DNA of 64,000 nt from Sialis fuliginosa. Lineage: Eukaryota; Arthropoda; Insecta; Megaloptera; Sialidae. The DNA lies in contig OY540810.1 in assembly GCA_961205875.1 (NCBI GenBank), positions 30,442,001-30,506,000 on the forward strand, given 5' to 3'. Under the pieces are notes generated by a model. The model saw only the letters and a program-made list of their open reading frames with translations. It was not told the origin of the DNA and did no database searches. Every line of letters begins with the position of its first letter. The stretch's first letter is position 1. Of the stretch, positions 38,901 to 49,900 are shown piece by piece. A program made the translations under genes and the position numbers.

Positions 38901-41900
38901 TCTAAATCATCATAACTTTTAGTTTAGGGTTCGAAAACGCGATATTTGTACGTAAAACGCAAGTATTTCAATGATTTCCATTTTGAAATCGAAATGAAAA
39001 CGATTTTTTTTTCTCAAACCACGTTTTTTTTTATAAATTTGTTTATAACTTTTGAACCACTCATCTTTTGCAAAATCAGAGGTCGGATTCTGAAAGATCA
39101 TTAAATTTTGCGTTGAAATTGACTTCCGATATTTTTGAGACCCCGATTCCACTGAAAATACAGTGGTTAAAAAGTGCGGCCGAAAAACGTCATGCTAGGC
39201 CGTAATGGGTTAAAAGAATCGTTTTTTCATTATTAGGCCAAGGACTTTTCAGCCCAAGTAGTATTTACTGAATTTCTAACTGAATTATAGCAACAATACG
39301 TTTAATCCTTCAAATGGACATAATTTAACATACTGAAACTTTTAGAAATATGAATGTAAAACTAATCTTCAGTGGATTTACACCCTTATAGCGAATTACA
39401 AAAAACTATATCCCAGAAATATGTGCCTAAACCGCTATTATAATATATTCACTCACGACACTCACCTGTGGCCCAGTGCACGACAGTGTGTCGCTCCAGA
39501 TCCATAGCGCGTGGGTTAGCGCCGTTAGCCAGTAGAAAGTTAACTAGCGCGACGTTCCCAGCAATGGCGGCGAGATGTAGCGGCGTCAGTCCGTCCACGT
39601 CGGTCGCATCCACCAAGTCCCTGGCGGCGCTCAGCACCAAGTCTGCGCAACGTGCAGTGCGAGCCTCTGCGCAGTAGTGTAACGCGATCTTCTGCGTGCG
39701 ATCGCGCTCGCGAGCAAGATTCGGCTGGAAAATATACAAAAAATATATAAAAATATAAAAAAAAAACATTATTTATTTGGAACGTTAGTCTATATCTAAT
39801 TTATATTTTTTTCTTGATTACAAAGTCGTCTAGTATTTTTATGTTTTAAAAAATTTCAAAATTTAAACAAAACCCGCGGTATATAAAATTATAAACATTT
39901 CATTTTATTAGTAACGATAACATACAGTGATACGTTACCCAGTAGGCACTTTATAATAGGCAACTGCCTTCCTAGGCTCCTCCCTAGGGTCCCGAGGTAA
40001 AGGGGAGTCCGAGCCGACGAAAGGGACCTCGAAGTCTAAGATGTGTTATAATTTACAACAAACTAGAAATTATATTTTATAACTTATGTAATGTGTAGTT
40101 TGTGAATATCTTTTTTTAGAGCATAATAAAAAGCCCTAACATTTTTGTGGTACCCAGGTACTAGAGATCAGTTTGGGCCGGGCCGGCCCGAAACTATCCG
40201 AATTTATCCCGGTCCGAACTTCGGATCGGATCGGACCGGGCTTAATTTTTGTTTGTCATGTTCGGGCCGGATCGGATCGGACCTTAGTATAAATCAGACC
40301 GGGTCGGATCGGACCTGTCTGAACCTTGGTATACATCTTAAAGAATAAATAAATATATTATTTTTTCAAAACAAAACTTTTACTTACAATTACTTTTATT
40401 ATTATTTTATATATTATTAACAAAATTATAATTTTACTAATTTGGCTTATAATTTCATTAAAAAAAGAAATAACCTAACCTATACGCAATAGTACATTGT
40501 ATCGCTAGTATTTTTTAAGAAAACCCTGCACCGAGGTATTTTTAATATTTTTCATTAGTTTTACTTATTTTATTTATAAAAGAAATTAAATATTTTAATT
40601 GAACGTATATCAGTGATTTAATTGTTTACTAAACATTGATTAAGTCAGGTTAGAATTAGTATATTTTTATATTATATACTTCCTTTTTAATATATATAAT
40701 TTATTATATGAATTATCAAAAAAAAATTGTATTGTAATACAATACAATTTTCTTAGATCAGTTCGATTCGGGCCGGCCCGAAATACCCGGTCCGAAATTC
40801 GGATCGGATCGGACCGGGCTTAATTTTTGTTTGTAATGTTCGGACCGGACCGGATCGGACCTTAATATAAAATCTTATAAATCGGACCGGATCGGACCGG
40901 GTCGAAAAAAAAAAGTTTCGGATCGGATCGGGCCACTATTTTAAGGTCCGATCTGATCTCTACCAGGTACCCTATAACATTTTTTTATTTTATTATAATT
41001 TATTATTGTTTTTAATTATTAAAAACAATTATTGTTATTAATTTATTGTGTTTTTTCACAAATTTTTATTCTTCCTACAGCCTCCAATCGTCATAACGTG
41101 ACACTAACATAACTATATTTCACGGGGATAGTGAATTCCGTCCCAACAAGCAAAATAAAGAAAATTATTATAACAAAATTTATTTGACTACTAATGCCAT
41201 TATTCAATAACTGCAAATACAAAATTCACAAATATCAAAGAAATGCTACAATATTTTATTTCCGATATCATATTATGCTACTTCTGCATCTCTATATATA
41301 GGTACTAATGGTTACAATAATAATATAACACCATAAATTGACATCACTTTTGAGGAAATATCTACTGTACATGCATACGACACGTTGAGTTCGTTGAACG
41401 AACAATACCCTAGAAACTGAGAGAGAACAACGCGCGAAATAGAACCAACGACCCTTTGGATGACACTTTTATACATAAACTATGTATATTCAGTTTAATA
41501 AATAATAAACAATTGATTTCACCAACTCACTCACGTTACAGTTCTAGTTTTGAAACTATTGAACTTTGAATGTTAATACATTATAATTATAGTTCAGAAG
41601 TCAGAGAAATTAATACAGGGTGGCCCAACGTTAACGAAACGGCCGCGCTTTTGGAAAAATCAGCCTACTTTATTTTAAATTTTAGTTGTAAATGTTTGTT
41701 TTATTGATCAGAAAATAAATGCGTTGTTTAGAATGAAAAAACCTTTCAAATGAGTTATCACTTGCCCTATCATGCTATTTAAAATTTTAAGGGTTGTGCT
41801 CATAGCGCAGAGGGTTAGAAAGATTCTTGCACAAGTTTTATTGCAAAAGATATCTCCCTTGAAAACAAAATCGATATGTTCGAGCGTTTTTTCTAAATCT

Positions 41901-44900
41901 TATTTTAAGTGTCCAAAAGCGCGGCCGTTTCGTTTTCGTTGGGCCACCCTGTATATTTAATTATCAATATATTTTTTGTAAATATCACACATTAAACGTT
42001 CGATGAATATGTTTATAAAAACATCTGTTCATTTTGAATTCAGAAATGTTCTTGGAATGAATATTTTAAGCTTTTGCAAAAACGTGATTTGATTTTTTTT
42101 AATTCTTAAGCGTTTTCTACGTAAAAGCACACATGTATCATGTATCAAAAGAATATTCCCAAAAGCTTATCTTTGTTATTTTCTGGGATTTTTTGAATAC
42201 ATATAAGTCTCATCTCGTTTCGATTAAAATCTTATCTCGGACTTGTCTCTTAAAAAACTAAGCTAGTCTTATCTAAATCTCGTCTTGTACCCGTACGAAG
42301 ACCGATAAAAGTCAATCTCGTGTGAACAAATAAATTCTGAAATATAACGAATCTTATAATATATATTTTAATTAATTATAAATTTAAAGAATTATATCAA
42401 ATAGTGCATTTTTATAATTATTCATAATTTTTATACTGAGACTCTCGGCGAGACCTATAAATAAAGTTGATATCATTTAAAATTCAAGTGGTAGCGTGCG
42501 ATTCTATACAGAGCAAATGCATACATATAACATGTATCGGGTTCGGTTCGGTTTCAAATATAAATTTTGATTCGGATTTAGGTTCAAAAACCGTTATATT
42601 TTTAGGTTTCAGGTATGGTTTCGGGTTCAAGTTTGTAATTGAAAGAAAATTATTTTGTTCGAAAAAAAATATAATTAATAAATAAAATATTTTCTGAAGA
42701 AGAAAAAAACATTAATCGTATTTAAAATACTGCTAGAAAAAGGGCAAAAAATAAAATTACATTTTAAAGATTGAAATCTCTACTTTTCAGATATTTTTTT
42801 GCAGATTGAAATGTAATTCAGTTATAGAATTTTAAAAAAGTAAGAAATATGTAAATTTTAGTAGTGGACTTGATAACATCACATTATAAAATTCAAACAG
42901 ATTTCCAGTTTGTACATTTTATAATCTCTTTTAAAAATCATTGAAGAAAAGAATTTAAAATTTAAAAATAATTTATTGAACCTTCTAAAAATATATGGTT
43001 CCCGATTATCCATGAAACGGTTCGAATTCAGATTCAGGTTCGTTTACTTTGAAATATAGCTGTTCATTTCAGATTCAGGTTAATGGAAAATACGGATTTT
43101 TTTGGGTTCAGGTTCAGGTCTCTGATCTTAAATATTATAGATTTATCTTTATGTACCCTTTAATTAGTTCTACAATCAGTATACAGGTAAACGTCGTTTT
43201 ACGCCGGGGTTCTGTTCCGAGAGACACCGGTGTAAAAAAAATCGGCGTAAAATGAACACAAATATAATGGACAATATAATTTTATTATTTTTTATTTTTC
43301 TTAAAGACAAAACGAAAACTAGGTAACTCGGAAACAATTTCACACACACAATAGGCTGCTCGCATACACGGTAATAGAATAAAACAATGTGTAAAAGTGT
43401 GTCTGCTATTAGAATCGCGGCGCCTACTGTCGTCTGGTGTCGGCCGAACCGGGGAATCCCACGCCGGCACCAACCGGCGTAATTGTGAATCGGTGTAAAT
43501 CGAACTGGCGCAAAACGACGTTTACCTGTATATTTAATATAACTGTAAAAATTACTTTTCAGTCCATGCATAATAAACTGTAAATCCAATCACTTAATTA
43601 TATATCAAACAAAGAGTTTATTTTTACAATAAGTTCAGAAAACATTAGCATAACAATAAGTAGAACGTTTAACAAATTATTCAAACATACACGTACATAT
43701 TATAATGAATTAGGTCTCTTTATAAAACAAAACTATTAACAGATTAAACATTAAACTGAAAATATTTCATAAGTAAACCATAATGATAAAAGAAAACAAC
43801 CAATTTTATATCGCAAACTATAATTTAATATAGTATTTTAGCATAATGCATGCACAATGTTCATTCAGAATACATTAACTCGTGTAGCTGATGTTAATTT
43901 GTAATGTTAATAAATTTAAATACGTACTAATCAAAAGAAAGTCACTTTTCTTTGGATGTGAATCAACAATGGCTAATATTTAGGACAAAAGTTTACTATA
44001 CAGTAAGTATAAGCTTTATAGTTGTTTGTTTTCTTTTTAAATTGTATTTATCAAGTGCGATTGCCATAAATTAATTCATCGTATAGAATTAGAACAATTA
44101 TTATAAAAAGTAGGACTTTTTTGATATTATTGTTAGTCATTTTGGCTTATGAACGGTTCATTTATAGTAGAAAAAAATTGTACTTCGCACCACACATTAA
44201 ATAAAAGAACGAAAATTACCATATGAACATTTTTCATCAATGTGAACTTATATGGGTATTTAAGGCCTGTCAATTTTAACATAATAAAATAAATTCTGGA
44301 AACTTTAAAAAAAATAACAAAAATATAAAATAAAAATTTCAAATTATCAATAATACTTTCAAACAAAAATAGGAAAAATCAATATCCATTATACGAAAGA
44401 AACAGTGACATATGAATTGTTTATATTTTATTTTTATTAATGTTCTGTACTGAAATCGGATAGTAAGAAAACACTTCCAAAATCAACACAGCGTTTGTAT
44501 ATCTGTTTGTTTGTCACATCATTCTAGCTACTGAACCGTTTGATTTAGAAAGCTGAGATTTGGCATAATTATTTGGGCCAAGAAAATTTGTTTTATTAAT
44601 ATTATTTCTTAATCCAAGTATATTATTTTTTTCTTCCGACAATATTGCTTTAAAGAGAAACAATAATTTTTTGGATTAATAGTATATTCTTATATTAAGA
44701 AATAGTCCAGTACATTTAAACGAAAAATAGCTGTGTCTGGGGAAAAATTCGCAATAAGCTGAATTTTTGTATAGGCCTTCATTTTGTCTTTATAAATAAG
44801 ATACCAAAAGTCCCCAACAATCCCATGCGAGCATACCTTTTTACAGCCCACAAAAGGTGCTAACAATTAGTTTTAAGTAAATATCTCTGTATCTATTGGT

Positions 44901-46973
44901 TCTATGACTAAAATAGTTATTAGCAAATATAAATTTTAGAAAATTACCTACAATAAAGATCTTATAACTTTTTTCGTACAAGTAATCGTTTTCGCTTATT
45001 AAGAGAGTATTCTAGTCTAAAAATGTGAAAATATAAAAAAATTTTTTTGCATTTTATCAATAAACAGGGTTTCAAAAATATGTGTTCAAAACCCTATACC
45101 TCAATTCCAAAAACTGACAGAGTTACAGCGATTTGAAGATGATGCGTAGCATTGAATAGCCAGCTATGTATAAACTTTAAACGCGTTTTTCTCGAAACTG
45201 AAAACTGAAAATGGCTGCCATAATATCACAAGATCTACTGAACCAATTGACTTCAAATTTGCTGTGCATATACCTTCAGTACACATGTTTTTAGCACCGT
45301 TAGCAGAATTGAGTCAAAAACTTTTTTTTTATTGTATAGATAGCGAAAGATTAAAAACATAAAAAAAATAACAATGAATAGTCACTTTTCAAAATGCCGC
45401 CATTTTTTTATTTTAATTATTATTTTTATTTTTTTGCAACCCGCAATAGCCACACTTGTATATATAAAGAAAGTTATTGGTTTTATTGGCCACTGATATA
45501 ATTTCGATAAAAATTACCTACATACAATTCATTTTTATTTTTTTTTTTTTTTTTATCTTTCGCTATCTATACAATAAAAAAATGTTTTTGACTCAATTCT
45601 GCTAACGGTGCTAAAAAGATGTGTACTGAAGGTATATACACAGCAAATTTGAAGTCAATTGGTTCAGTAGATCTTGTGATATTATGGCAGCCATTTTCAG
45701 TTTTCAGTTTCGAGAAAAACGCGTTTAAAGTTTATACATAGCTGGCTATTCAATGCTACGCATCATCTTCAAATCGCTGTAACTCTGTTTTTGGAATTGA
45801 GGTATAGGGTTTTGAACACATATTTTTGAAACCCTGTTTATTGATAAAATGCAAAAAAAAAATTTATATTTTCACATTTTTAGACTAGAATACCCTCTTA
45901 ATAAGCGAAAACGATTACTTGTACGAAAAAAGTTGTAAGATCTTTATTGTAGGTAATTTTCTAAAATTTATATTTGCTAATAACTATTTTAGTCATAGAA
46001 CCAATAGATACAGAGATATTTACTTAAAACTAATTATTAGCACCTTTTGTGGGCTGTAAAAAAGTATGCTCGCATGGGATTGTTGGGGACTTTTGATACC
46101 TTATTTATAAATACAAAATGAAGGCCTATACAAAAATTCAGCATATTGCGAATTTTTCCCCAGTGAAAACCTAATGTTCCTGGACTAAAAATATTGATTT
46201 CGTTTTATAGAAAGCAAGGATTTCTTGGCCCAAGTCAACTTTTATACTCGTGTAGAAATGAGTTATACATATTAATAAAATTTTAAGTTTTTTAAGAGGT
46301 GCAAATTGGTTACTAATAAAATGTTTTATCTAGTTCCGGCGAGCGAGTTATCAAATGAAAGCTAACAATTCAAGAAATTTAAATATGTTAACATTTTATC
46401 ATTATTAAAATTTTTGTTTGACAGGTTTTCAAAAAAAATATTTTGTCCACCAGAAAAAAATGTTATATCAAAAGAAAATCATCAGCATTCACCATATTTT
46501 TCAAATAATCGAATAAATTAAAAACCTATAAGGTACGAGACACTATCCAGTCATTATTGGCATACATATTTTTACGATTTTTTTTAATTTTAATAATACA
46601 AAACGTTTACATATTTAAATTTCTTAAATTGCCAGCTTTCATTTGATACCTCACTCGACTTTAGATAAAATATCGCTTCGCATGATTTCAAAACCACATA
46701 AAAAGAGACCCAACTGTATTTAAAAACATGGGATTATCAATTACATACGTTTTGACGCACGAGCCTTGCGACTTGGTCGACGTCGCCTTGCTGGCACGCG
46801 TACATGAGCGCCGTGCATCCGGGCGACGATCCTGCATTCTTCGCATCGTTCGAAGGTTTTACACCGGGCTTACTTGCCGCAGCGCCTGTTGCCGGGCCAG
46901 TGGCCGCACCGACGCCGTCAACGGACTTGCTGTGCGACCGGTTGGTTTTCGTCTGCTCACGTGTGTTACCCAT
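17911..46973 (-). CDS. large ankyrin-repeat protein, function unassigned
   Basis: Twelve exons: 46749-46973, 39466-39724, 27442-27596, 26269-26545, 25911-26056, 25565-25780, 24234-24549, 22473-24017, 22213-22413, 21824-22073, 20758-21098, 17911-18167. All have GT-AG borders, and phases add to exactly 1396 codons (1395 aa plus stop). Residues about 50-470 are a run of roughly a dozen ankyrin repeats; GLTPLHLAAIAGNVALVNFL, GYPLHYAAQ, GCTALHYAVTLGHADATALL and GRTALHIASLRDNADM are clear. Residues about 530-1046 (exon 8) are extremely Glu/Lys/Ser-rich and probably disordered. Residues about 1180-1310 form a separate basic, helical module (MTSVTQSIQTNIRR, then YHLERKIFQHLLELKRLQIR). The final exon (85 aa) ends HAKSC. 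It is probably a cytoplasmic scaffold; inversin-like proteins are one comparison, but I cannot assign orthology. Joining exon 11 directly to exon 12 rests on phase only, so a missed exon is possible. Intron 2 (11.9 kb) and intron 1 (7.0 kb) are packed with transposons. Confidence 0.88.
18150..19190. repeat. repeated segment that includes a splice acceptor
   Basis: The sequence TTTTCGTAACTAAAATTGAT at the exon 12 acceptor (18160-18179) recurs at 19142-19161. A weaker copy (GTAAAATTGATGATTTTCAT then CAGTTATAAACAC) lies at 19068-19106. Each is followed by a related ATTCAGTTATAAA-like tail. Read on the minus strand, both strong copies contain TTTTAG|TTACGAAAAT, so a decoy acceptor sits about 1 kb upstream of the used one. 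Confidence 0.5.
19820..20165 (-). mobile_element. diverged Helitron fragment, same family as 33775-34663
   Basis: Its reverse complement aligns over about 330 bp with the head of the Helitron at 33840-34150. Shared blocks include TTATCACTCGAGAACCA, GCAATACGCTGCCTAAACCG (with one change) and TCTAACTTTTATATTTAAGC, and the blocks keep the same order and spacing. The 3' hairpin/CTAG end was not found, so it looks truncated. Confidence 0.75.
20185..20715. repeat. inverted-repeat element beside exon 11 of the ankyrin gene
   Basis: CACGGTGCTCTGGAAGCCAA at 20185 is mirrored by TTGGCTTTCATAGCACCGTG at 20696-20715. Inner segments TTTTAAGACCAAAAAGAAAA (20239-20258) and its complement near 20610-20625 also pair. 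The outer end lies about 42 bp from the exon 11 splice donor (GT at 20756-20757). The open frame at 20551-20799 runs through it and is not a gene. Confidence 0.65.
20384..20430 (-). other. tRNA-Thr-like 3' half (relic)
   Basis: Minus strand reads GATCTTGTAAACTAAGGGTC followed by ACGAGTTCGAATCCC. This resembles the anticodon loop (TTGTAAA, UGU anticodon) and T arm (GAGTTCGAATC) of a threonine tRNA. No D arm or acceptor stem is present and the T stem does not pair well. It is a pseudo-tRNA or the tRNA-derived part of a SINE, not a functional tRNA. Confidence 0.4.
21648..21669. repeat. homopolymer run of 22 C
   Basis: Uninterrupted C tract in intron 10 of the ankyrin gene (a G tract on the coding strand). 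Length is probably polymorphic and prone to sequencing error. The short open frame starting at 21641 is an artefact of this run. Confidence 0.95.
24677..24901. repeat. MITE in ankyrin intron 6
   Basis: About 225 bp. Left end TACATGTTGCTCATTTGCTG followed by ACTCAAAAATTG; right end CAATTTTTGAGTTTTGACG then CAGCAAATGAGCGATGTA. The arms pair over about 45 bp. Confidence 0.8.
27152..27360. repeat. fragment of a CAGGGTG-ended element
   Basis: Starts TACAGGGTGGGGCATTTAAA next to TA, like the ends at 41616. Contains the block TTTCAACCAAAAAATCTTTG. No matching second end was found, so it is probably truncated within intron 3 of the ankyrin gene. Confidence 0.4.
28801..29006. repeat. MITE in ankyrin intron 2
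   Basis: About 206 bp. CCTAAGACTATCAATGTACA at the left, mirrored by TGTACATTATTGTAGTCTTAGG (split: TGTACATTATTG, TAGTCTTAGG) at the right. An inner pair CACAAGACAAAAA and TTTTTGTCTTGTG extends the arms to about 65 bp. Confidence 0.85.
30162..30958. mobile_element. hAT-type non-autonomous element carrying a mariner
   Basis: Terminal repeats CAGGGGCGCGTCAAG and CTTGACGCGCCCCTG are perfect over 15 bp. Flanking octamers CTCTTATT and CTATCACT match at 5 of 8 positions, in line with a decayed 8-bp hAT target duplication. Most of the interior is the mariner copy at 30299-30882, so the host element was only about 210 bp. Confidence 0.7.
30299..30882 (+). mobile_element. deleted mariner copy
   Basis: Terminal repeats ACTACATGGGCTGAAAA (30299) and TTTTCAGCCCATGTAGT (to 30882). 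The interior translates in broken frames to the C-terminal third of a mariner transposase: the third-Asp region degenerate (PYSLYLTSNDYYFFSKLK), then EGFDANHHKTDIEMLEDH. After DH it has lost 14 bp relative to the copy near 38500, between two CATT repeats, and the frame shifts. The 5' two-thirds of the gene is absent. Confidence 0.85.
31363..31648. repeat. inverted repeat with internal AGATCT motifs
   Basis: TCGTTTACCATAGACCTTCG at 31402-31421 pairs with CGTAGATCTATGGTAAACGA at 31580-31600. Outer ATGAAATTAGATTAAT pairs with ATCTAATTTTTTTCAT. GTAGATCTA-like motifs recur inside. There is no coding capacity. Confidence 0.6.
33095..33648. repeat. MITE family A, copy 2 (uninterrupted)
   Basis: About 554 bp. 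Left end GAGTACGTTTACACAACGCT; right end TGCTGTGTAAACGTACTC. TATTCCGGTTTAACTATAAC pairs with GTTATAGTTAAACCGGAATA. Long blocks match copy 1 at 16035-16763. The minus-strand open frame 33417-33797 spans its right half and is not a gene. Confidence 0.9.
33775..34663 (+). mobile_element. non-autonomous Helitron
   Basis: Starts TC (TCCTTAATATATATAAAGC) and ends CTAG (34660-34663) after a GC-rich hairpin CACGCGAGCGAAGCCGCGTG at 34633-34652. It sits between A and T, the Helitron target preference. A TGTC-repeat tract lies near the head (33805-33844). This 3' end is common in lepidopteran genomes and is the main taxonomic hint here. No Rep/helicase coding is present. Confidence 0.85.
35990..36200. 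repeat. two-copy tandem repeat, period about 105 bp
   Basis: AAATTTGAGAAGAAATAAGG, GGCCACCATAAGTA and AATATTCACTAAACAAGTGA (36020-36080) recur as AAATTTGACAAGACAATATG, GGCCACCGTAAGTA and AATATTCAGTAAACAAGTGA (36121-36192). A third partial, CACTAAACAAGTGA, lies at 35793. The overlapping minus-strand open frames reflect the repeat. Confidence 0.7.
38400..39264 (+). mobile_element. 5'-truncated mariner, split by a piggyBac-type MITE
   Basis: Reads GLDANYYKTGIEMLEDHWNK and CITLDGDYVEE then stop at 38537, the conserved C-terminus of mariner transposases. The 3' end (AAGGACTTTTCAGCCCAAGT at 39240-39259) matches the terminal repeat of the copy at 30299. No left terminal repeat was found. The C-terminal coding is intact here but N-terminal parts are missing, so it is dead. 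Confidence 0.85.
38555..39209. repeat. piggyBac-type MITE flanked by TTAA
   Basis: Exactly TTAA at 38551-38554 and 39210-39213. The element starts CCCATTACGGCCTAGCAGGA and ends TCATGCTAGGCCGTAATGGG. Terminal inverted repeats run about 140 bp with few changes. TTAA target plus CCC ends is the piggyBac signature. The insertion point is 14 bp after the mariner stop codon. Confidence 0.9.
40150..40980. repeat. GGATCGG short-period repeat element in ankyrin intron 1
   Basis: Two related GC-rich patches (40160-40330 and 40760-40960) are built from GGATCGGATCGGACCGGG-like units. Both carry CCGGGCTTAATTTTTGTTTG. They enclose about 420 bp of plain AT-rich DNA. The outer ends are inverted: GGTACCCAGGTACTAGAGAT (left) and ATCTCTACCAGGTACC (right). 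The composition is unlike anything adjacent. The 67-residue open frame at 40145 is not a gene. Confidence 0.7.
41616..41951. repeat. MITE with CAGGGTGGCCC ends and TA target
   Basis: 336 bp, flanked by TA on both sides. CAGGGTGGCCCAACGTTAAC then GAAACGGCCGCGCTTTTGGA on the left; TCCAAAAGCGCGGCCGTTTC then GTTGGGCCACCCTG on the right. The internal open frame is not a gene. Confidence 0.9.
42530..43120. repeat. GGTTCGG/GGTTCAGG short-period repeat patches
   Basis: GTATCGGGTTCGGTTCGGTT at 42533-42552 and later GGTTTCGGGTTCAAG begin the first patch. CGGTTCGAATTCAGATTCAGG and GGGTTCAGGTTCAGGTCTCT (43018-43120) form the second. The layout (two short-period patches around an AT-rich core, ending near CTCTGATC) parallels the element at 40150. 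Confidence 0.5.
43184..43528. repeat. pogo/Tigger-like MITE with TA target
   Basis: 345 bp flanked by TA. Starts CAGGTAAACGTCGTTTTACG and ends CAAAACGACGTTTACCTG. Further inner GGCGTAAA/CCGGTGTAAA copies resemble degraded end repeats. End type and TA target fit the pogo/Tigger group (inference). The long minus-strand open frame across it is not a gene. Confidence 0.8.
44571..46227. repeat. giant inverted repeat, arms about 640 bp, in ankyrin intron 1
   Basis: The left arm 44704-45355 and right arm 45552-46190 are reverse complements with roughly 15 differences by eye. The loop is about 200 bp of T-rich, unpaired sequence. Markers: AAGATGATGCGTAGCATTGA (45135-45154) versus its complement at 45752-45771; AGATAGCGAAAGAT at the loop edge versus ATCTTTCGCTATCT. 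Outer pairs TTGGGCCAAGAAA and TTTCTTGGCCCAA extend it to 44571 and 46227, with a small extra segment (about 44605-44700, itself a minor inverted repeat) only in the left arm. No protein coding is seen in the arms. Confidence 0.92.
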
Positions 46974-49900
46974 AGTCTCCGCTCATTTGATCATCTGTTC
47001 AAAACAATCATATCAAAGTTTTAATAAAAATAGTTTTATTTTTAAAAAATATCTAAATAACTTGAAATATATTAAAATGCGCTTCAAGAAACAAAATGGG
47101 TAATAGTTAGTTGATAAATAATAATGTTTGATTTTAATACTAATTTGTAAGAACATATATTTTTAACAAAATATTTCAAAGAAAATGTTGATACGCCAAT
47201 ATAACAATAATATTCAGATTCGTACTTATGCACAGGCGCCAGTGTAATAAGGAGGGGGGGGGGGAAGCAAGGCGCTAACCTAGTACAAGGGTCACTAGAT
47301 GAACAATATAGAGCCAGCCAATTAGGGTCGAACAGATTTTAAAAGATGGTTACTTTAATACTTTTTTAATACTGAAGAGCAAAAAAGTTCTCGAATGAAT
47401 ATGGTAACTTAACGTTACACTTTTTTAGTAAAATTTTTATGAATAATAATTATTTTTTTATATTAAAAAAAATCAATAGGACCATATTTTGCGCCTTGAG
47501 CCTGTGTTAATACGCCTCTGGTAATATTGTATTTACATAAAGTATCACAAATTAACGATATTTAAGTAATAGACTTAAATATCGTTAATTACCCAGTATC
47601 GTCAACAAAACTTAACAAATGGTGGAGGCGCTGAGTAATAATTATTTTCTCAATTTTGTAAAAAAAAACAAATAGTTACAATATTGTGTTACTCTAATTA
47701 TGCACTATATTGGGACTACTGACGAAGTTGAATTCAGAGGAGGTAAGAGGAATTCTAAGTCAAATAATAAAAATACAAAAAATCGTGGAATTCATTGTCA
47801 GTAAAACTATATTATCGCGTAAATTGTTACTAAAACAATTGAACAACTACGTCGGACGGCGACAGCGAGTGTGTCACATATGACCGGTGAGGGGGTCTGG
47901 CCTCGATTTAGCGATAGGCCTGCATCCTCACGCAAACCAACCACCGGCGGTCAAGTGGGTCACTATAACTAGGCCAAAGTCCGAGACCAAACACAAATCT
48001 CAGGTACACCTAATTACCTACTACCGCCGCTAACTGATCTAAATATAGCGGCATGCAAATAAAATTATTTTTATTAACATATTCATGATAATCATATTCC
48101 ATTTCACTGGTTTTAAAACTTTTTTAGTAGAGGCACCCTCGTATAATTTTTTTACATTTGTAAAAAGAAATATCTCGGTACCTACTTATGTATAGGGATT
48201 TCCTAAACGGTAAGAGATTCAGATTTGGTTAAATGAGATGAATTATTTGTAAGGAATGGGTGAATTACTACATCAAAAATATTAATAATTCTATGTGGTT
48301 TAGGCGGTATACGGAAAAATCTGAATATTCAGAAATTCTTTAAATGGTTATAACTTTTTTGTCAAAGTAGATAAATACTTTTTGTTTGCGGTTTCTTAAA
48401 GTACTTTTTGTGTACAATTGATTGGTGTATTTAGAATTTTTATATTACTTTTAGTTTCCAACTTACAAGCCCTAACTTTAGTTTTTCTTATGAGCCAATA
48501 AGTTGTCTATAGCATACAAATTTATTCAACATTATGAAATATTAAATTAGAGTATTTATGAAACATTTTCATTAATATTAAGAGTAAATTAAGGTAACAG
48601 CAGATGAACTTTTAAAAACATAATTTTTTGTGTTTTTATCAGCCGGTTTCATAAATAATTGATAATCAAATGACTTTTTGGGAGGAGTTTGTAACGTTAT
48701 CATATAATGAAGTATGTATTAGTAAATAGGAACAATTAAGCTCCAACTTTAATAAAAACTGCCAATAATGAAAGAAAGAAGAAAAAAAGTGTGATAGTTG
48801 TTTCAGAACAGAATGGATATTTATTGTTATTTTTTGTCAGTTTTGGGTCATAGATTTAGAAATTATAATCTATAGCCATAAGCTGCGAAAAAAATGTTTT
48901 TGGTAACTAAATAAAAAAGCACATAGATAATTACAAAACATTTAAAAATTAAATATTTACGGCACTACATGTTATGAGAATCACTGCTCTATAATAAACC
49001 AAGTACAATCATAAAATGAGTAAATTTTGTAATGTACTTAACAATGTTGTTTAGAAAATATGTAGAGAAGTTAAGTACTTACACTTCAAGTACTATTTAA
49101 AGTATTTTACTTGAATTATTAACAACTCTGTACTCAAATTATACATATCAGTGTTAAAATTTTTGAAGATTCGTTGAATAAATACAGCAAGTAAAAATTA
49201 ACATACTCCAACCTATGATGAATAATGATTTTTAATAAGTTTCGTAAAAATGACTTTATAGGAGACTGTACTTTTAAAGTGGTTTTAAATCAAGATTATT
49301 AAACGAATTTAAAGTGTATTTGAATTTTTTATTTACATATTTTTATTTTTTTCCTGTATAAAAATATTTTATACAGTTATACACCTAAAAAAATCAGTAC
49401 GAAAATAAAACTAAAAATTAAAATTTTGTAAAATAATAAAACGAATAAATAAAAATGTGAAATATAAAATTTTACTTTGTTTTAGTTCAATTTTTCGAAA
49501 CCGGTGAATTTTAAAATTAAGTCATTTTTACATACATTTTTATTTTAGAGAGATATTTTCATTTAAATCAATACTAATAAATAAATAAAAATTCGTAAAC
49601 ATAAAAAAATATTATTTTAAATAAAAATCTACCCTTGAACCAAATATTAAATATTATTTATTTTCATTTATAATTAAATGAATACATTAATAATAATTGA
49701 TACAGGAACTACCTATGATTATATACAGGCATACATTCATAATATTATCAACATAAACATACCAACGAGTGCATAACCTAACAAACAGCGCTATGGATAA
49801 GAAAATAACTACAAATCATCTTCTCAAACGAAACATGATGACTACCTACAAAGTAAAATATACATAATCACACTTTACCTTTTAATATCATCACATAAAA

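Follow-up and report, generated by a model that had tools for sequence, protein, structure and literature searches.

A long intronic inverted repeat in Sialis fuliginosa is very probably one copy of a multi-copy foldback DNA transposon

Introduction

The window analysed here, a 64,000-nt stretch of Sialis fuliginosa contig OY540810.1 (positions 30,442,001 to 30,506,000 of the forward strand), contains a long inverted repeat with near-identical arms inside a putative intron of an ankyrin-repeat gene. Is this repeat a locus that makes a hairpin RNA for the host, or is it a mobile element that landed in the gene? The original prediction, made from the letters of the window, named a hairpin-RNA locus and held that a foldback transposon or an inverted duplication was equally plausible. 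We analysed the structure of the repeat, its relatives in the genome and its insertion site. There is little doubt, in our view, that it is one copy of a multi-copy, non-autonomous foldback DNA transposon, which inserted into an older intronic repeat and is most likely neutral there.

Results

The inverted repeat belongs to a 1485-bp foldback element

Comparison of the window with 20 loci fetched from the genome gave the common ends of the element, TAGTCCAG...CTGGACTA, and resolved the feature into the following parts (window coordinates).

44703..46187, no strand: complete foldback element, 1485 bp, with ends TAGTCCAG...CTGGACTA; termini common to 19 complete copies
44700..44702, no strand: target-site duplication, left copy, AAA
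44703..44737, plus strand: left end of the element, outside the arms, 35 bp; 254 genome matches
44738..45382, plus strand: left arm, 645 bp
45383..45523, no strand: loop core, 141 bp; both orientations found among copies
45524..46162, minus strand: right arm, 639 bp, 97.0% identical to the left arm
46163..46187, plus strand: right end of the element, outside the arms, 25 bp; 265 genome matches
46188..46190, no strand: target-site duplication, right copy, AAA

The long, near-identical inverted repeat is present as predicted and is far above chance expectation. End-to-end alignment of the arms gave 19 substitutions and 3 gap runs over 639 aligned bases, so the near-identity stood, whereas the predicted figures of some 15 differences and a 200-bp loop had to be revised. 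The arms make up most of the element and surround a middle loop, which is the foldback layout. The two ends of the element have their terminal 8 bp in common and are otherwise unlike.

The arms had been described as lacking recognisable coding sequence, and this description held. The longest open frame overlapping the element was 62 aa, a Pfam scan of 5 of the 32 overlapping frames returned no match at E ≤ 1, and an Rfam scan of the whole window returned no match at gathering scores.

The element lies between two candidate exons of an ankyrin-repeat gene

Two open frames on the minus strand mark the surrounding gene.

46737..46982, minus strand: open frame with the first coding-exon candidate of an ankyrin-repeat gene (MGNTREQ...); Pfam Ank
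39449..39772, minus strand: open frame with the next ankyrin exon candidate; Pfam Ank_2, E 1e-10

In the first frame, MGNTREQ stands close to the beginning and an ankyrin repeat towards the end; the Pfam Ank match has E 7e-4 and, at 20.2 bits, falls short of the 21.1-bit cut-off. As judged from these candidate frames, the element is placed in one of the first introns of an ankyrin-repeat gene on the minus strand. The predicted location in intron 1 agrees with a position between the first two coding-exon candidates; the intron number would be higher if the gene also has a non-coding exon upstream. A second inverted repeat (46340-46397 / 46600-46657), with 58-bp arms that are 88% complementary, lies between the foldback element and the first coding-exon candidate.

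A position inside a gene would suit a locus-specific hairpin-RNA gene, in which the intron RNA would fold and be cut by Dicer-2 into endo-siRNAs that serve the host. Transcription of the element would give a strong hairpin RNA: the predicted folding energy of its minus-strand transcript was -1037 kcal/mol, a single value given without a shuffled control at such length. Drosophila hairpin-RNA loci can, moreover, have transposon-derived arms, according to excerpts of PMC10317233. In the same excerpts, these loci are recognised by Dicer-2-dependent siRNAs together with homology to a target. The window repeat resembles them in being a long inverted repeat that could give duplex RNA; unlike them, it is a dispersed transposon and is known from sequence alone.

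Copies with the same ends are dispersed in the genome

A genome search with the left arm returned at least 46 matches, the window itself included, with the best 40 of 1694 first-look candidates scored. Most of the best matches began at query positions 130-133, corresponding to about 44700-44703 and not to 44571, where the repeat had been predicted to start. All 20 of the fetched matches, drawn from the best for this arm, proved to be copies of the foldback element. A 29-base left-end pattern (up to 3 mismatches) matched the genome 254 times and a 22-base right-end pattern (up to 2 mismatches) 265 times, these being counts of ends and not of complete copies; the reversed patterns gave 0 matches each. 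Outside the genome, the left-end pattern had no match in viral contigs, and an 18-base right-end pattern had 2 matches in prokaryote genomes, no more than chance in such a collection.

We assembled 19 complete copies of 1473-1497 bp, consisting of the window copy, 16 of the 20 fetched loci and two further loci, L033 and L042; the other four fetched loci (L012, L013, L016 and L025) were left out as incomplete within the fetched stretch. An exact 3-bp direct repeat flanked 16 of the 19, against 0.47 expected from base composition, and L011, L017 and L028 were the three without one. The duplicated triplet was AAA in the window and CTA, TAA, TTA, TAT, CAA, ATA, AAA, TTT or TAC in other copies.

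These results bear on what the repeat is. The original prediction had proposed that many dispersed copies would indicate a transposon and a single copy a locus-specific duplication; the 254 left-end and 265 right-end matches, with none for the reversed patterns, favour a transposon. It had also named hundreds of similar copies, together with a lack of 21-22 nt reads, as evidence against a hairpin locus, and the end matches are that numerous. A dedicated hairpin-RNA gene is thus very improbable: all 20 fetched relatives of the left arm (from at least 46, window included, with the best 40 of 1694 candidates scored) were copies of the element, and no target gene was found among these 20 (again with the best 40 of 1694 candidates scored). 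The window hairpin appears to be an ordinary copy of a transposon and not a locus dedicated to silencing genes, and with this a candidate regulatory hairpin has been settled as a transposon copy.

Palindromes are prone to inverted duplication and to assembly artefacts, and the repeat could in principle be a one-off product of either kind. The same ends, arms and loop recur at many loci whose flanks differ and which have duplications of their own. An assembly artefact is therefore unlikely, and the dispersed, independent copies refute a one-off origin, for which we see virtually no chance. Of the two other readings in the original prediction, the transposon was thus borne out by matching termini, 3-bp duplications and insert-free sites (see below), and the one-off inverted duplication was not.

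Spliced-out introns are usually degraded, and long RNA duplexes may be edited instead. Both points weigh against a further reading, compatible with a transposon copy, in which the hairpin is a passive source of siRNA: transcribed copies would occasionally be diced, and the resulting family-wide endo-siRNAs would silence the family. In favour of it, there are hundreds of ends in the genome, each complete copy is able to fold back, and endogenous small RNAs of insects come mostly from repeats, as stated in the excerpted text of PMC4423592. We regard such a role as possible, with the odds rather against it.

The element interrupts an older palindromic repeat

The sequence on either side of the element forms a feature of its own.

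44573..46254, no strand: older self-complementary repeat, split by the foldback element into 44573-44702 and 46191-46254

When the two flanks were joined with a single AAA and used as a query, 38 other scored genomic places matched at 81-91% identity, beside the window's own two halves. All 38 crossed the insertion point without an insert, indicating that the element landed inside an older, self-complementary repeat; this repeat is abundant, with 1870 first-look candidates for the joined flanks. In 17 of the 38 the two matched lengths were equal, in 8 they were one base apart, and in the other 13 the difference was larger; these figures come from the matched lengths and not from inspection of the alignments. 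Equal or one-base-different lengths are expected if a single AAA is left.

The predicted limits of 44571..46227 were too wide for the transposable unit, which spans 44703-46187. The outermost complementary pieces, TTTGGGCCAAGAAA / TTTCTTGGCCCAAG, are part of the host repeat and not of the foldback unit. Because the element inserted into a palindromic repeat, the outer limits first drawn fell in complementary stretches of the host repeat itself.

Arms within a copy evolve in concert

Arm divergence was measured over a 560-bp stretch per arm in the 19 complete copies (38 arms). The two arms of a copy differed by 2.6% on average (range 0.9-5.1%), and arms of different copies by 3.9-4.0%. The contrast is conservative, since choosing loci by their similarity to the window arm should lower the divergence between copies. 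For 19 of the 38 arms, the nearest neighbour was the arm's own partner. Both arms of a copy shared minor states in 80 cases, whereas 1000 reshuffles gave 24.9 on average and never more than 49. This excess supports concerted evolution of the two arms throughout the family, whether in the copies themselves or in the sources they came from. Among private variants, 20 were present in both arms of a single copy and 131 in a single arm.

The window copy is typical for the family in the identity of its arms. These differ by 2.3% over the 560-bp stretch, inside the family range, and each departs from the majority sequence of the 38 arms by 2.9%. Both have the right arm of L015 as nearest neighbour (1.6 and 2.2%), not each other. 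The window copy has none of the 20 both-arm private variants, and all seven of its both-arm minor variants recur in one or both arms of L015; two of the seven are common to exactly the window copy, L015 and L020, in both arms of each. Since the both-arm variants of the window copy are shared with other copies, homogenisation took place at least partly before these copies dispersed, and conversion, where it happened, can predate the window insertion.

The high arm identity had been read as a sign of recent origin or of conversion at the locus. With a typical 2.3% and no private both-arm variant, this reading was not upheld, and exceptional or locus-private arm conversion is ruled out. A dedicated hairpin-RNA gene gains no support here either, the window arms being no more alike than those of other copies.

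The loop occurs in both orientations

Among 22 copies, the loop pointed one way in 7 and the other way in 15, as exchange between the arms predicts. On a loop tree of 142 columns, orientation changed 3 times, compared with a shuffled mean of about 6; this tree has one starred branch and an unsettled bootstrap, and on starred branches alone no more than one change is required. Constraining the 7 loops of the rarer orientation to a single clade was rejected (p-AU 0.0086). The clustering of orientation on the loop tree suggests that flips are occasional and not frequent. Exchange between arms would be the simplest cause of the flips.

Rearranged and one-ended copies

Two of the fetched loci are rearranged copies. 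One, L013, was noted as such; the other, L025 (G000:C13:9480700-9484800), consists, in this order, of two facing left ends, 4-5 bp of left flank in inverted orientation and a right end; such a snap-back structure is expected from template switching during repair.

Other ends lacked a partner. On contigs C1-C7, 32 of the 79 listed left ends had no listed right end (100 of the 254 left and 100 of the 265 right ends being listed). We examined 17 of these 32 (L033-L049) with about 9 kb of sequence each; 6 were two-ended, and 11 had no right end by BLAST. Eleven one-ended copies among 17, within about 9 kb, are many for simple cut-and-paste and count against it. For seven right ends that had no left end among those listed, about 500 bp was read; all seven matched the element for at least 60 bp from the end. 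Three left-right pairs of 6.0, 5.1 and 3.5 kb (L030-L032) lacked frames of at least 150 aa; they look like copies split by other sequence.

Discussion

Relation to known foldback elements

The arrangement of the family can be accounted for as follows. A transposase made elsewhere would recognise the short, unequal ends and insert the element, probably by cut-and-paste, with a 3-bp duplication. Arms paired inside an element may recombine and convert each other, which would keep them alike and flip the loop, and the same pairing may favour deletions and snap-back rearrangements. One such copy would have inserted into the older palindromic repeat in the early intron of the ankyrin gene, where it is most likely neutral and probably serves no host function.

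Much of this is already seen in Galileo, a foldback-like element of the P superfamily in Drosophila. In excerpts of PMC3573991, the repeats of one Galileo copy are 98-100% identical and 64 of 170 copies are solo repeats, and exchange and conversion between repeats were proposed by the authors as the cause; excerpts of PMC4168063 give a target duplication of 7 bp, or 8 in three copies, and class Galileo by its transposase. Compared by description with what these excerpts report (PMC3573991, PMC4168063), the window family is like Galileo in its long inverted repeats, non-coding derivatives, one-ended or solo-repeat copies and exchange or conversion between repeats. It differs from Galileo in its 3-bp instead of 7-8 bp duplication, the latter being characteristic of the P superfamily, and in that its transposase was not found.

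Tetris, a foldback element of Drosophila virilis, has 8-10 bp duplications, tandem repeats in its arms and only three structurally complete copies, as far as excerpts of PMC4079207 describe it. By that description, the two families share a non-coding foldback layout, the lack of an autonomous partner among the sequences found, and rearranged copies; they differ in the duplication and in the tandem repeats in the arms of Tetris (PMC4079207). The 8-10 bp duplication is also that of Mutator-type foldback elements, in contrast to the 3 bp found here. By description, therefore, the 3-bp duplication distinguishes the family from the foldback elements compared, both Mutator-type and P-type.

A literature search, including one by TAGTCCAG, found no description of the window family among the entries listed; one under another name, or an entry held only in a repeat database, would escape such a search. 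Since Galileo already shows much of the same in the excerpts of PMC3573991, the foldback element is a new family of a known kind, set apart from Galileo and Tetris by their descriptions. The family offers natural material on which conversion between inverted arms, and inversion of the loop, can be measured. A more far-reaching reading would combine 3-bp duplications, conversion-kept arms and a repeatedly flipping loop with intronic copies that act as a distributed, family-wide source of endo-siRNA, and would perhaps place the family in a superfamily so far unlinked to foldback elements; we consider this combination unlikely.

Search for a transposase

No transposase or autonomous partner with the same ends was present among 20 extended loci of 4-9.5 kb. 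Frames of 150 aa or more occurred in only four of them, L033, L036, L039 and L041, always outside the recognised element stretch. One frame of L039 encodes an RRM protein, its second frame and those of L036 and L041 had no Pfam match, and the frames of L033 were retroelement-like by eye.

PIF/Harbinger elements, like those of some other superfamilies, have 3-bp duplications. The window family resembles PIF/Harbinger in the length of the duplication and differs from it in having varied duplications, whereas Harbinger prefers TWA targets, and in its ends, Harbinger end motifs being different. Searching the genome for the Harbinger-type domain DDE_Tnp_4 (PF13359) gave 92 hits, with 150 of 189 candidates scored. 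None lay within 10 kb of the 153 element ends compared (200 listed of 519 counted); with the nearest scored hit 10.9 kb from these ends, no link of PF13359, as a candidate transposase, to the family was seen. Of the 92 hits, 35 fall on a single contig, C14 of the same genome (G000).
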